This document shows positions 1,973 through 12,606 of a DNA stretch of 13,522 nucleotides, in pieces (within the stretch, counting starts at the first letter, position 1; each line of letters starts with the position of its first letter). A program made the translations under genes and the position numbers. This DNA comes from Chitinophagaceae bacterium (GTDB lineage: Bacteria; Bacteroidota; Bacteroidia; Chitinophagales; Chitinophagaceae), in the NCBI GenBank assembly GCA_019747455.1, contig JAIEQT010000585.1, forward strand, positions 1 through 13,522. Direction: 5' to 3'. Below the pieces are notes generated by a model. It made no database searches and was not told the origin of the DNA. It saw only the letters and a program-made list of their open reading frames with translations.

Positions 1973-2590
1973 TTAAGGTATTTGCAAGTATTTGTGAACT
2001 TGTAAACTCATTTGCCATTTCGGATTTTGTTGGATATAGTGGATGATTGCAGGTGTTACTTCGCTTGCTTTATCCCATTCGGGTTGCAAGTATAACTTAC
2101 AAGAAGGAGATACTTGATTAGCGTATGTTTCAGCCCATTCAAAATCATGTTTATTATAAACGATAACTTTTAATTCATTAGCAAGTGGAATGATCTCAGA
2201 TAAGGGGGCTTTGAATTTTTTGGGAGATAAGCATATCCAATCCCAATTACCGGAAAGAGGTGATGAGCCGGAGGTTTCGATATTTGTTTCAAAACCCAGT
2301 TCATGTAATCCGTTAGTTAAATCAGTAAGATCATGTAATAAAGGCTCACCGCCTGTAATTACAGCTAATCTTCCGGGAAATTTTTTCGCTTCATTCAAAA
2401 TATGATCTACCGATTGTTGAGGATGCTTGGTCGCATCCCAACTATCTTTTACGTCGCACCAAAAACAACCCACATCGCATCCGCCCAAGCGAATAAAGTA
2501 AGCCGCCCTCCCTTGGTGAAAACCCTCTCCTTGCAAGGTATAGAAAGCTTCCATTACCGGTAATGTATTTATAGTGGGTAACATTTGCAT
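1973..2590 (-). CDS. queE: 7-carboxy-7-deazaguanine synthase (radical SAM)
   Basis: Converts 6-carboxy-tetrahydropterin to 7-carboxy-7-deazaguanine in cytosolic queuosine/preQ0 biosynthesis. The 205-aa protein has the QueE opening EAFYTLQGEG (14-23) and a canonical radical-SAM CxxxCxxC cluster site at Cys38, Cys42 and Cys45 (GGCDVGCFWCD). A TGGEPLL motif follows, the usual SAM-binding GGE. Length is typical for short QueE. The start could be the first ATG or the one two codons later (MQM); nothing decides between them. It begins 14 nt after folD on the same strand and is probably co-transcribed with it. No other queuosine gene is in the window. Confidence 0.93.
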   Translation of the reverse strand: MQMLPTINTLPVMEAFYTLQGEGFHQGRAAYFIRLGGCDVGCFWCDVKDSWDATKHPQQSVDHILNEAKKFPGRLAVITGGEPLLHDLTDLTNGLHELGFETNIETSGSSPLSGNWDWICLSPKKFKAPLSEIIPLANELKVIVYNKHDFEWAETYANQVSPSCKLYLQPEWDKASEVTPAIIHYIQQNPKWQMSLQVHKYLQIP

Positions 2591-2604
2591 GAGGTAAAGT
2601 TATA

Positions 2605-3483
2605 TTAACCGCGATTGTTGAGATAGGCTTGCATGGTATTTTTCAATAAGCCGGCAATGGTCATGAGTCCAACACCACCAGGTACCGGCGTAATAGCACC
2701 GGCTTTTTTACTGGCTTCTGCATAATTCACATCCCCTTTTATACGAAATCCTTTTTTGGCCGTATCGTCGTTAACCCTTGTAATACCTACATCGATGATA
2801 ATGGCTCCTTCTTTTACCATATCGGCAGTAACAAATTCAGGCTTACCTAAAGCAGCTACCAAAATATCTGCAGTAGCAGCAATCTCCACAAGGTTTGGGG
2901 TATATGAGTGGCAGATGGTTACTGTACAGTTTCCTTTTGCCATATTGCTGCTGAGTAATATACTCATGGGTCTGCCTACTATATTACTTCTGCCGATAAC
3001 AACAGCATGTTTGCCTTTGGTAGGAATATTATAGTATTCGAGTAATAAAATAATACCGTATGGAGTTGCTGGTATAAATGTGGGTAAGCCTTGCACTAGT
3101 TTACCCACACTGCTTGGATGAAAACCATCCACATCTTTAGAAGGGTCTATAGCTTCTATTAATCTTTGTTCCGAAATATGTTTAGGTAGTGGTAGTTGTA
3201 CCAAGATACCATCGATATCATTGTTCTTATTCAACGTATCTACTGTATGCAGTAATTCCTGTTCTGAAATATCATCGGGGAAACGGATAAGTGTGGATCG
3301 AAAACCTATTTCTTCACAATTCTTCACTTTGCTGGCTACATAAGTTTCGCTAGCCCCATTATTACCAATCAGAATAGCTGCTAAATGCGGACTAGGCTTG
3401 CCTTTTGCTACTAAATCAGCCGTTTCTTTTTGAAGTGATTCCTTAACGGAAGCTGATGCCATTTTACCATCTAGTACTAACAT
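2605..3483 (-). CDS. folD: Bifunctional methylenetetrahydrofolate dehydrogenase / methenyltetrahydrofolate cyclohydrolase
   Basis: Interconverts 5,10-methylene-, 5,10-methenyl- and 10-formyl-tetrahydrofolate using NADP, supplying one-carbon units for purines and formyl-Met-tRNA. The 292-aa length is standard. Visible signatures: SETYVASKVKNC with the catalytic Tyr48/Lys52 pair, DGILVQLPLP (91-100), KDVDGFHP (116-123), the dinucleotide-binding GRSNIVGRP (164-172), and the C-terminal PVPGGVGLMT. It starts MLVLDGK as the family does. A TACTTTTG element ends only 4 nt before this ATG, suggesting a leaderless transcript. It diverges from the DUF3467 gene and leads into queE. Confidence 0.96.
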   Translation of the reverse strand: MLVLDGKMASASVKESLQKETADLVAKGKPSPHLAAILIGNNGASETYVASKVKNCEEIGFRSTLIRFPDDISEQELLHTVDTLNKNNDIDGILVQLPLPKHISEQRLIEAIDPSKDVDGFHPSSVGKLVQGLPTFIPATPYGIILLLEYYNIPTKGKHAVVIGRSNIVGRPMSILLSSNMAKGNCTVTICHSYTPNLVEIAATADILVAALGKPEFVTADMVKEGAIIIDVGITRVNDDTAKKGFRIKGDVNYAEASKKAGAITPVPGGVGLMTIAGLLKNTMQAYLNNRG

Positions 3484-11264: not shown

Positions 11265-11338
11265 GGCGAGGTAGCTCAGTTGGTTAGAGCACAGGATTCA
11301 TAACCCTGAGGTCTCGGGTTCAAATCCCGATCTCGCTA
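11265..11338 (+). tRNA. tRNA-Met (CAT anticodon)
   Basis: A full cloverleaf can be drawn. Acceptor GGCGAGG / TCTCGCT with G-T pairs at both ends; D stem GCTC/GAGC; anticodon stem CAGGA/CCCTG with one A-C mismatch next to loop TTCATAA; variable loop AGGTC; T arm TCGGG-TTCAAAT-CCCGA; discriminator A at 11338. CCA is not encoded. The first acceptor pair is G-T and the D arm is ordinary. It reads as elongator Met, but CAT could also mark initiator or a lysidine-modified Ile tRNA; without the identity elements tested, elongator Met is the best guess. Its 3' part is duplicated 325 bp downstream. Confidence 0.93.
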
Positions 11339-11365
11339 CACGGTCTCAGTAATGAGACCTTTTTT
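11313..11365 (+). repeat. 53-bp direct repeat, copy 1 (tRNA T arm, acceptor end and terminator)
   Basis: Identical over 53 bases to 11638-11690. It starts at the last base of the variable loop (CTCGGG) and runs through the acceptor 3' strand and the terminator into its T-tract. This copy belongs to the intact tRNA gene. Confidence 0.95.
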
Positions 11366-11366
11366 T
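11342..11366 (+). terminator. Intrinsic terminator of tRNA-Met
   Basis: Perfect 7-bp stem GGTCTCA/TGAGACC with GTAA loop, followed by seven Ts. The GIY-YIG ATG begins at the very next base. Confidence 0.92.
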
Positions 11367-11609
11367 ATGTCATTCACCGTTTACGTTTTATACTCGGAAA
11401 AAGCAAATAAACACTACACTGGATTTACTAATAATCTAGCTGAGCGTTTGCACAGCCATAATGATTATGGAAAAGATTGGACTGCCGCTTACAGACCTTG
11501 GAGGTTGATTTACTCAAAGCAATTCGATTTAAAGGCTGATGCAATGAAATACGAAAAATGGCTAAAATCGGGTGTTGGGAGAAATTATATAAAGCGTTTG
11601 CCCCATTAA
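11367..11609 (+). CDS. Small GIY-YIG nuclease-domain protein (YhbQ-like)
   Basis: An 80-aa protein that is almost entirely one GIY-YIG domain, a fold that cleaves DNA via a conserved Tyr/Arg/Glu centre. The motif is degenerate (YVL at 6-8, YTG at 17-19), but key residues are present: Tyr6, Tyr17, Arg27 (ERLHSHN) and Glu63 (YEKWLKSG). The ATG directly after the terminator T-tract is chosen. A longer start at 11352 lies inside the terminator stem-loop and adds only MRPFF. There is no promoter between tRNA and gene, so expression may need read-through of the tRNA terminator. No DNA-binding domain is attached, unlike classical homing endonucleases. It is flanked by the 53-bp tRNA-derived repeats. 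Confidence 0.88.
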   Translation: MSFTVYVLYSEKANKHYTGFTNNLAERLHSHNDYGKDWTAAYRPWRLIYSKQFDLKADAMKYEKWLKSGVGRNYIKRLPH

Positions 11610-11612
11610 GTA

Positions 11613-11663
11613 AGGATTCATATCCGCCTAAGGCGGACTCGGGTTCAAATCCCGATCTCGCTA
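11613..11663 (+). pseudogene. tRNA-Met 3'-half remnant
   Basis: Begins with AGGATTCATA, matching the anticodon region of the intact tRNA (11293-11302) including CAT. A 15-nt palindrome (TCCGCC-TAA-GGCGGA, 11623-11637) stands where the rest of the anticodon stem and the variable loop should be. The T arm and acceptor strand are then identical to the intact gene. There is no D arm or 5' acceptor strand, so no functional tRNA can form. It starts 3 nt after the GIY-YIG stop codon. Confidence 0.8.
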
Positions 11664-11690
11664 CACGGTCTCAGTAATGAGACCTTTTTT
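11638..11690 (+). repeat. 53-bp direct repeat, copy 2
   Basis: Perfect copy of 11313-11365, at offset 325 bp. It carries the tRNA T arm, acceptor 3' strand and terminator, and forms the distal boundary of the GIY-YIG unit. Confidence 0.95.
11667..11690 (+). terminator. Duplicated tRNA terminator
   Basis: Same GGTCTCA-GTAA-TGAGACC hairpin followed by six Ts. In its new place it ends any transcript covering the GIY-YIG gene. Confidence 0.9.
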
Positions 11691-12083: not shown

Positions 12084-12606
12084 ATGCAAATACAAAGAGT
12101 TGACTCTGTAAATGGTCATGTGCTTAAAGCTATGAAAGACCATTTGATATTGAAAACCTATAGTGCGAGTACGATACGAACCTATTTGAACGAGATGCAG
12201 CAGCTATTACATACGGTAGCTAATATACCTGTTGATGCCTTGCAGCCCGAGCATTTAAAAAGATATTTTGCGTGCCTATATTTGCCAATATACCCCAAAG
12301 CCGAAGGTATATCTATTTGAGTCGGAGCAATCGGGGGATGCATATCCAATTAGAACCATTCAACAAATTTTTAGTAATGCAAAGGTAAAAGCTGGAATAA
12401 AAAAGGAGTTAGGTATACACAGTTTGCGACATAGTTTTGCAACACATTTATTAGATAAGGGGACAGATATACGCTACATCAAGGAATTATTGGGTCATTT
12501 CGATATTAAGACTACCGAGCGTTATTTGCATGTGAGTAAACGGCAATTAGTAAATATCATAAGCCCATTAGATGATTTATTCAGTAAAAAGCAGATAAAT
12601 CGCTAA
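12084..12606 (+). pseudogene. Tyrosine recombinase/integrase, internally deleted and frameshifted
   Basis: Two pieces of a XerC/D-like site-specific recombinase lie in different frames. Piece one (12084 to about 12270) is the N-terminal SAM-like core-binding domain: [30 protein letters not shown]. Piece two (about 12268-12606, frame +1) is the end of the catalytic domain: [20 protein letters not shown], then [28 protein letters not shown]. The second catalytic Arg with its HxxR, the LGH histidine and the nucleophile Tyr survive. The first catalytic Arg region and roughly 120-130 residues of the usual length are gone; the join falls near TATTTTGCG at 12263-12271. It cannot make a working enzyme. 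It may be the relic of the integrase of an island at the tRNA. Confidence 0.88.

Follow-up and report, generated by a model that had tools for sequence, protein, structure and literature searches.

Integrative elements that target tRNA genes leave the tRNA end duplicated and one tRNA intact. REP palindromes, which are short, GC-rich and dispersed, go with a Y1 transposase (RAYT), and homing endonucleases of the I-TevI type carry a DNA-recognition region besides their catalytic domain. Closer to the unit described here is SegB, a phage GIY-YIG enzyme that amplifies a tRNA and its own gene in tandem. Like our unit, SegB of phages T4 and T6 pairs a GIY-YIG gene with neighbouring tRNA genes, forms tandem repeats of tRNA and nuclease gene, and has homology between the tRNA and the nuclease gene end; it differs in being phage-borne and in having a cleavage motif that enhances cutting and is not required (PMC13096335, in the part of that paper used here). 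The same part makes no mention of a palindrome-bearing tRNA copy (PMC13096335). In fungal mitochondria, the mORFs of Allomyces atp6 and of Glomus atp9, the latter with a GIY-YIG gene, place an endonuclease gene between a working gene end and its displaced duplicate, as our unit does, and the sections of that source used here describe no hairpin (PMC3630166). Prokaryotic Slx1 members are described as the minimal variant of the GIY-YIG domain, for which the portion of the source drawn on shows no link to tRNA genes (PMC1564403). Across the open literature, a scope outside which most subscription papers fall, we met no account of bacterial GIY-YIG genes lodged at tRNAs together with broken tRNA copies, the nearest being SegB as the cited part of its paper presents it (PMC13096335).

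A one-gene unit beside tRNA-Met

The unit lies in a 13,522-nt stretch of DNA (the window). An intact tRNA-Met with its terminator, an 80-aa GIY-YIG gene and a 53-bp repeat had been read from the letters alone; this layout is real in the window, and a similar one recurs in other families. Its features are as follows.

11265..11339, + strand: intact tRNA-Met (CAT), elongator type, called by ARAGORN and with an Rfam tRNA match in L001
11342..11366, + strand: terminator-like hairpin and T run 3' of the tRNA, a putative terminator judged from sequence only
11367..11609, + strand: GIY-YIG nuclease gene, 80 aa, single domain (ORF list, PF01541 match and model)
11613..11664, + strand: degenerate tRNA-Met copy (anticodon 10-mer, palindrome, T arm, acceptor strand), by sequence comparison
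11623..11637, + strand: palindrome TCCGCCTAAGGCGGA within the degenerate copy, perfect, with compensatory changes in relatives
11667..11690, + strand: terminator-like hairpin, second copy, lying within the 53-bp exact repeat (11638-11690)

The longest exact repeat in the window is 53 bp, with 11313-11365 identical to 11638-11690 at a spacing of 325 bp; it covers the T arm, acceptor strand and terminator and is far beyond chance. The tRNA homology of the downstream copy opens before this repeat, with the anticodon 10-mer AGGATTCATA at 11613-11622, and the perfect palindrome TCCGCCTAAGGCGGA then occupies the place of the anticodon-arm 3' side and variable region of the intact tRNA. The GIY-YIG frame opens one base past the end of the T run (11366), the mechanical ORF start being 11352. 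In the window ORF list, no other ORF of at least 50 aa lies wholly between tRNA and repeat, and the unit holds no recombinase. The view of a one-gene unit without recombinase, tied to tRNA genes, is borne out. A duplicated tRNA end and one intact tRNA are what the unit shares with tRNA-targeted integrative elements, from which it differs in lacking a recombinase, in having a palindrome in the repeat and in involving 5' as well as 3' tRNA halves.

Domain score and conserved residues place the protein in the GIY-YIG superfamily, as far as its sequence can tell: the PF01541 match has an E value of 4e-13 and 49.9 bits against a curated cut-off of 22.6, and Y6, Y17, R27, H31 and E63 are invariant across 20 aligned relatives. 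We take these five to be the catalytic residues, by recall from I-TevI. The predicted model forms one confident domain (pLDDT 93.5) that contains all 80 aa, and a DNA-recognition region beside the catalytic domain is absent. The best solved relatives by sequence are two UPF0213 proteins (E about 2e-13), followed by Slx1 (1.6e-7), with I-TevI at 0.004; by fold, UPF0213 and Slx1 are again closest (structures compared, 1zg2, 1ywl, 7cq2 and 6seh) and I-TevI is near E 1. Because its nearest relatives are UPF0213 and Slx1 and the resemblance to I-TevI is far weaker, a structure-reading nuclease acting on the hairpin would fit better than a reader of long sequence. Slx1 itself differs from the window protein in carrying further domains and a partner.

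Three other identities for the gene were rejected. A group I intron-borne endonuclease finds no support, as no Rfam intron was found in the 14 loci scanned, including L001, and TIGR01453 matched only below its cut-off. As an anti-phage defence gene it drew only weak partial PADLOC matches. Carriage by phage or plasmid was set aside as well, the protein having no match in the phage collection and three weak plasmid matches.

Recurrence beside tRNA genes

PF01541 matches five genes of the source genome (2.8 Mb, 650 contigs, 77% complete): four short ones and one with a 604-aa frame, presumably UvrC given its size. All four short GIY-YIG genes found there adjoin a tRNA (Met, Pro(GGG), Lys and Arg(CCG)) accompanied by a broken copy of the same tRNA. 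The Pro locus has a 5' broken copy with a palindrome in the D loop, and the Arg locus has both 5' and 3' broken copies and a 32-bp palindrome. At the Lys locus the broken copy is 3' with its anticodon stem altered, and the intact tRNA is divergent and sits at a contig end.

This arrangement is common among relatives. Together, the source genome and its relatives gave 28 short GIY-YIG loci, of which 20 have a called tRNA nearby and four of the other eight end close to the gene. Among 20 contiguous genomes of the phylum, chosen for having at most 10 contigs, 17 of 57 matches (frames up to 435 aa) have a tRNA (16) or tmRNA (1) no more than 400 bp away, in every case on their own strand; chance expectation for a tRNA within 400 bp is ~1%, estimated from typical tRNA numbers. 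A broken copy scored above 30 shuffles in 28 of 34 tRNA-linked loci (L034 was judged by a separate comparison), and in the remaining six (L047, L105, L113, L116, L118 and L132) none did so. Four Met-clade proteins used as queries turned up 89 relatives, of which 80 loci were retained; they come from Pedobacter, Cyclobacterium, Niastella, Longitalea, Ignavibacteria and others. A tRNA lies within 400 bp in 59 of these 80, invariably on the gene's strand (59/59); 55 are tRNA-Met (one called incompletely), three tRNA-Val and one tRNA-Ser. In 47 of the 59 a broken copy lies on the gene's other side; in the other 12 it was not above shuffles, though visible by eye in some. Of the 21 loci lacking a called tRNA, eight are near contig ends, and inspection of 14 by eye revealed a tRNA fragment in 13.

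The family is present in Bacteroidota and some allied phyla, and the architecture and recurrence of the unit are solid. The original prediction proposed looking for short GIY-YIG genes beside tRNAs with a duplicated end, and the 59 of 80 genes beside tRNAs, 47 of them with broken copies, agree with it. The counter-case that it named, a layout lacking empty sites and absent from other RNA genes, is not what we see: there are ten empty sites (below) and copies at tRNA-Pro, tRNA-Lys and tRNA-Arg. We also observed GIY-YIG genes downstream of tmRNA on the same strand in L108 and L233, two of them in tandem in L233; by eye, no broken tmRNA copy was seen at either locus.

The link to tRNA genes follows protein phylogeny. 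In a tree of 72 proteins and 97 columns (13 of 85 were left out for X or for lengths of <65 or >130 aa), the label 'tRNA-linked' requires six changes against a shuffled mean of 24.2, and none of 500 shuffles was as low. One clade has 0 tRNA-linked rows of 33, with L108, near tmRNA, among them, against 33 of the 39 remaining rows; many forks of the tree are weak, and the branch holding the unlinked clade has support of 94/77. Those surveyed UPF0213-like GIY-YIG genes that are not tRNA-linked form a clade separate from the window's. A search for rRNA or tRNA beside 20 loci of unlinked GIY-YIG genes returned only the tmRNA of L108 and two other small RNAs. Within the tree, tRNA type mostly follows subclade (Met, Arg, Leu, Val and Asn), though not strictly, as Pro, Ser and Arg loci are mixed in.

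The 3' part of the tRNA varies between genomes, and at every locus compared (39 of 39) the broken copy resembles the tRNA of its own genome more than it does, on average, those of the other genomes; this comparison favours good copies since 12 of 51 3'-type loci were dropped for having no anchor or a score <20. The match to the own tRNA is perfect in 24 of the 39, over the full length in 21 and over only part of the end in three; at L298, 10 of 38 other genomes score equally high. Identity stops within 8 nt of the tRNA end in 26 of 39 loci and extends at least 13 nt beyond it in 13. Because the broken copy is host-matched, the end does not look imported, and the comparison suggests local copying or gene conversion. 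mORFs differ here, as they sit in organelle protein genes and their inserted ends are foreign and divergent, in contrast to the host-matched ends of our loci (PMC3630166, in the part cited above). The mORF pattern of a foreign inserted end and a native displaced end thus does not appear in the sequences compared. We file the element, on present comparisons, as a kind of free-standing endonuclease element that would lack a recognition region and a foreign gene end.

Host-matched ends would also be left by plain tandem duplication, in which a local tRNA duplicate decayed and the GIY-YIG gene between the copies is a passenger. The 13 of 39 loci with identity at least 13 nt past the tRNA point the same way, as do broken copies that have no gene. 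Such a history leaves unexplained why one protein clade is linked to tRNA genes (33/39 versus 0/33), why the gene shares the strand of the tRNA and why 42 of 47 copies hold a paired palindrome, which makes it distinctly improbable. The downstream repeat had likewise been weighed as an old tandem tRNA copy unrelated to the nuclease: a second tRNA copy it is, but it accompanies the nuclease gene in most loci.

A palindrome in the broken tRNA copy

A GC hairpin is present in 42 of 47 broken copies, 38 of the 42 being TCCG..CGGA; the search covered the broken copy and 35 nt on each side, so that a few (L296, L322) may be neighbours. Run on 546 random stretches of these loci, the same detector found a hairpin in 19; in 78 intact tRNAs it found one in 3. 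In the Met clade the palindrome directly follows CATA, with a loop of mostly 2-4 nt. Pattern-matched hairpins occur in 60 of 81 loci, 45 as TCCGCC/GGCGGA and eight fully paired with both sides changed; the pattern forces three of the six pairs, and four of the 60 matches look like chance and one has a mismatch. The palindrome is a conserved paired part with compensatory changes. By eye, its position varies with tRNA type: four Arg loci have CCTGCC..GGCAGG in the D loop and one Leu locus has a palindrome in the T loop (L021 was left out of this placement).

Of the 55 intact tRNAs beside the Met clade, 47 are initiator-like and 8 are elongator tRNA-Met. All 55 contain TCATAACCCnnAGGTC, and the palindrome replaces its second half. 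This placement bears on sequence-specific homing of the kind seen with fungal mitochondrial mORFs, in which the nuclease would cut the conserved block of an element-free tRNA gene, recombination would copy the gene with a replacement end, and the palindrome would do nothing except destroy the target in the remnant. For such homing speak the palindrome's position exactly on the block common to initiator and elongator tRNA-Met (55/55), the general coincidence of protein subclade with tRNA type and the existence of sites without the gene. It sits poorly with an 80-aa protein that has no recognition domain, with an intact tRNA adjoining the gene that still holds the block, with a paired stem where plain interruption would do without one, and with broken copies whose ends match the host at all 39 loci compared, while mORFs have foreign ends (PMC3630166, same part). 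We regard this explanation as rather unlikely. Spread by homing had been the original prediction, and part of it stands, the unit being found at other tRNA genes and missing from orthologous sites; recognition of tRNA genes by sequence is not supported, given the bare domain, the conserved block kept by the intact neighbour and an extra conserved feature that is a paired hairpin.

In seven 5'-type loci (L007, L009, L034, L037, L038, L092 and L106), the nuclease ORF runs 10-23 nt into the start of the tRNA, and a shared transcript would lose the end of its mRNA once the tRNA was cut out. These overlaps, the gene's position on the tRNA strand in 59 of 59 loci and a paired stem with a free loop would suit an RNA role, with hairpin and broken tRNA acting as a tRNA-like leader or tail through which the processing or the expression of a housekeeping or regulatory nuclease gene is controlled. 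This possibility is improbable, as the hairpin lies upstream of the gene in 5'-type loci and downstream in 3'-type loci, and persists in the gene-free copies L168, L176 and L214.

We saw five broken copies with no GIY-YIG gene (L168, L176, L190, L214 and L370). In the source genome, L168 and L176 are degenerate tRNA-Cys and tRNA-Ser copies with palindromes beside an intact tRNA; they may be relics or non-autonomous units. L370 (G081:C31) has four tandem repeats of tRNA part and palindrome beside tRNA-Met and no strong GIY-YIG match there, and positions 1-185 of L005 hold two perfect 77-nt repeats of tRNA part and palindrome before tRNA-Arg. Repeats in arrays of the L370/L005 type are about 108-120 bp long.

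The palindrome is also dispersed. Among the 29 genomes that have the Met-clade profile (E up to 1e-15), TCCGCC(N3-4)GGCGGA occurs at 303 sites versus 7 in a reversed control, as compared with 46 versus 44 in 50 genomes without the profile; the counts include sites inside units, many of G081's 29 being in one array. At least five net sites were found in 15 of the 29 genomes with the profile and in 1 of the 50 without (within-family permutation p 0.006). No palindrome sites occur in seven of the genomes with the profile, family f26 shows no effect, and the source genome has one site of the strict pattern. The association of dispersed palindromes with the enzyme family is no more than suggestive. 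At L187, L191, L184, L193, L369, L371 and L372, TCCGCC..GGCGGA also falls in matches to 23S rRNA, RNase P RNA and a cobalamin riboswitch and, judged by eye, in hairpins resembling terminators and in a 23S-like stretch; some palindromes in 23S rRNA, RNase P RNA and riboswitches may be natural stems. The idea that dispersed palindromes sit, as a rule, in loops of larger hairpins was not supported: 33 sites remained once duplicates and short flanks were removed, and only 3 of these reach 5/100, with a median of 35/100.

A bolder reading is a two-part mobile pair, in which short paired GC palindromes are coupled with a GIY-YIG enzyme of ~80 aa that is Slx1-like. The gene would be sheltered in tRNA transcription units, the palindrome would be the cut site, tRNA halves would address the ends to tRNA genes, and the enzyme would scatter palindromes genome-wide, much like RAYT with its REPs though by unrelated chemistry. 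We consider this unlikely as a whole. Dispersed GC palindromes, here in numbers that may go with a nuclease family, would be the likeness to REP/RAYT; the differences are a GIY-YIG enzyme and not a Y1 transposase, palindromes that lie in broken tRNA copies, and a mobilisation that is putative.

Empty sites, arrays and a candidate mechanism

We compared the best 29 loci besides the window from 60 other genomes of the same genus. Ten orthologous sites (L195-L202, L205 and L207) have the upstream anchor ORF (78-90% protein identity) and tRNA-Met without the GIY-YIG gene, in line with the empty sites that the original prediction expected in close relatives. L214 has only the remnant, with the same palindrome and no gene. 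The site thus has occupied and empty alleles, as free-standing homing endonuclease genes do. Tandem arrays also occur, with eight GIY-YIG copies in L230, three each in L094 and L103, and two in L229. In four Cyclobacterium genomes the unit is at one locus, which points to a largely vertical history.

Downstream of the unit in the window, at 12084-12606, are two pieces of a tyrosine integrase. A relative, L201, has a 247-aa ORF of the same integrase family (2399-3142) after its tRNA-Met, and the greater length of that ORF makes the window's integrase look broken. As the integrase ORF follows tRNA-Met in L201 as in the window while the GIY-YIG unit is missing there, the window's broken integrase is no part of the unit. 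Elsewhere in the genus, L224-L227 (G140:C89, G123:C7 and G009:C21) contain 14 tRNA-Met 3'-half copies beside two tRNA-Met. These 3' halves share 43 identical nt, with the anticodon arm intact and no palindrome; the 0.9-13.5 kb separating them hold one or a few genes, giving cassette-like arrays at tRNA-Met. The L201 integrase has no match in the L224-L227 stretches.

The integrase pieces at 12084-12606 and the arrays of 3' halves in relatives could be read as signs of an integrase-borne element reduced to one gene, with the repeat as its attachment site. That account is very improbable indeed: the relatives' repeats keep the anticodon arm and lack the palindrome, the L201 integrase ORF follows its tRNA without the unit, and neither 5'-type loci nor eight-unit arrays fit.

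Our tentative preference, which we hold at a little short of even, is for a minimal, probably selfish nuclease element that dwells at tRNA genes, cuts its hairpin and is repaired or amplified against tRNA sequence. We infer both the cutting and the mobility of the unit. An enzyme of the Slx1/UPF0213 type would cut DNA hairpins or branches and not long sequence, and its substrate would be the palindrome in the degenerate copy. Each of the two ends left by a cut there would be one half of a tRNA gene, and repair would for that reason be guided to tRNA genes. Repair on the neighbouring tRNA would keep the broken copy host-matched, repair on a sister unit would give tandem amplification, and repair on another tRNA gene, more rarely, would give spread, with one working tRNA kept throughout. 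Several points count against this reading: repair from the intact tRNA would be expected at times to erase the palindrome, palindrome-bearing copies exist without the gene, the hairpin may instead act in RNA, the history in Cyclobacterium is largely vertical, and the loci that lack a called tRNA (21 of 80) or a broken copy above shuffles (6 of 34 and 12 of 59) do not show the full layout.

If the unit does multiply, a single gene in ~325 bp that spares an essential tRNA would rank with the smallest selfish DNA in cells. A natural comparison lies within the family: across many genera one enzyme clade adjoins initiator or elongator tRNA-Met, and arrays, relics and empty sites all occur. Whether a bare GIY-YIG domain that recognises DNA structure and not sequence can be mobile thereby becomes testable. 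The family would account for small GIY-YIG genes beside tRNAs, and it may be a source of the dispersed palindromes of Bacteroidota.
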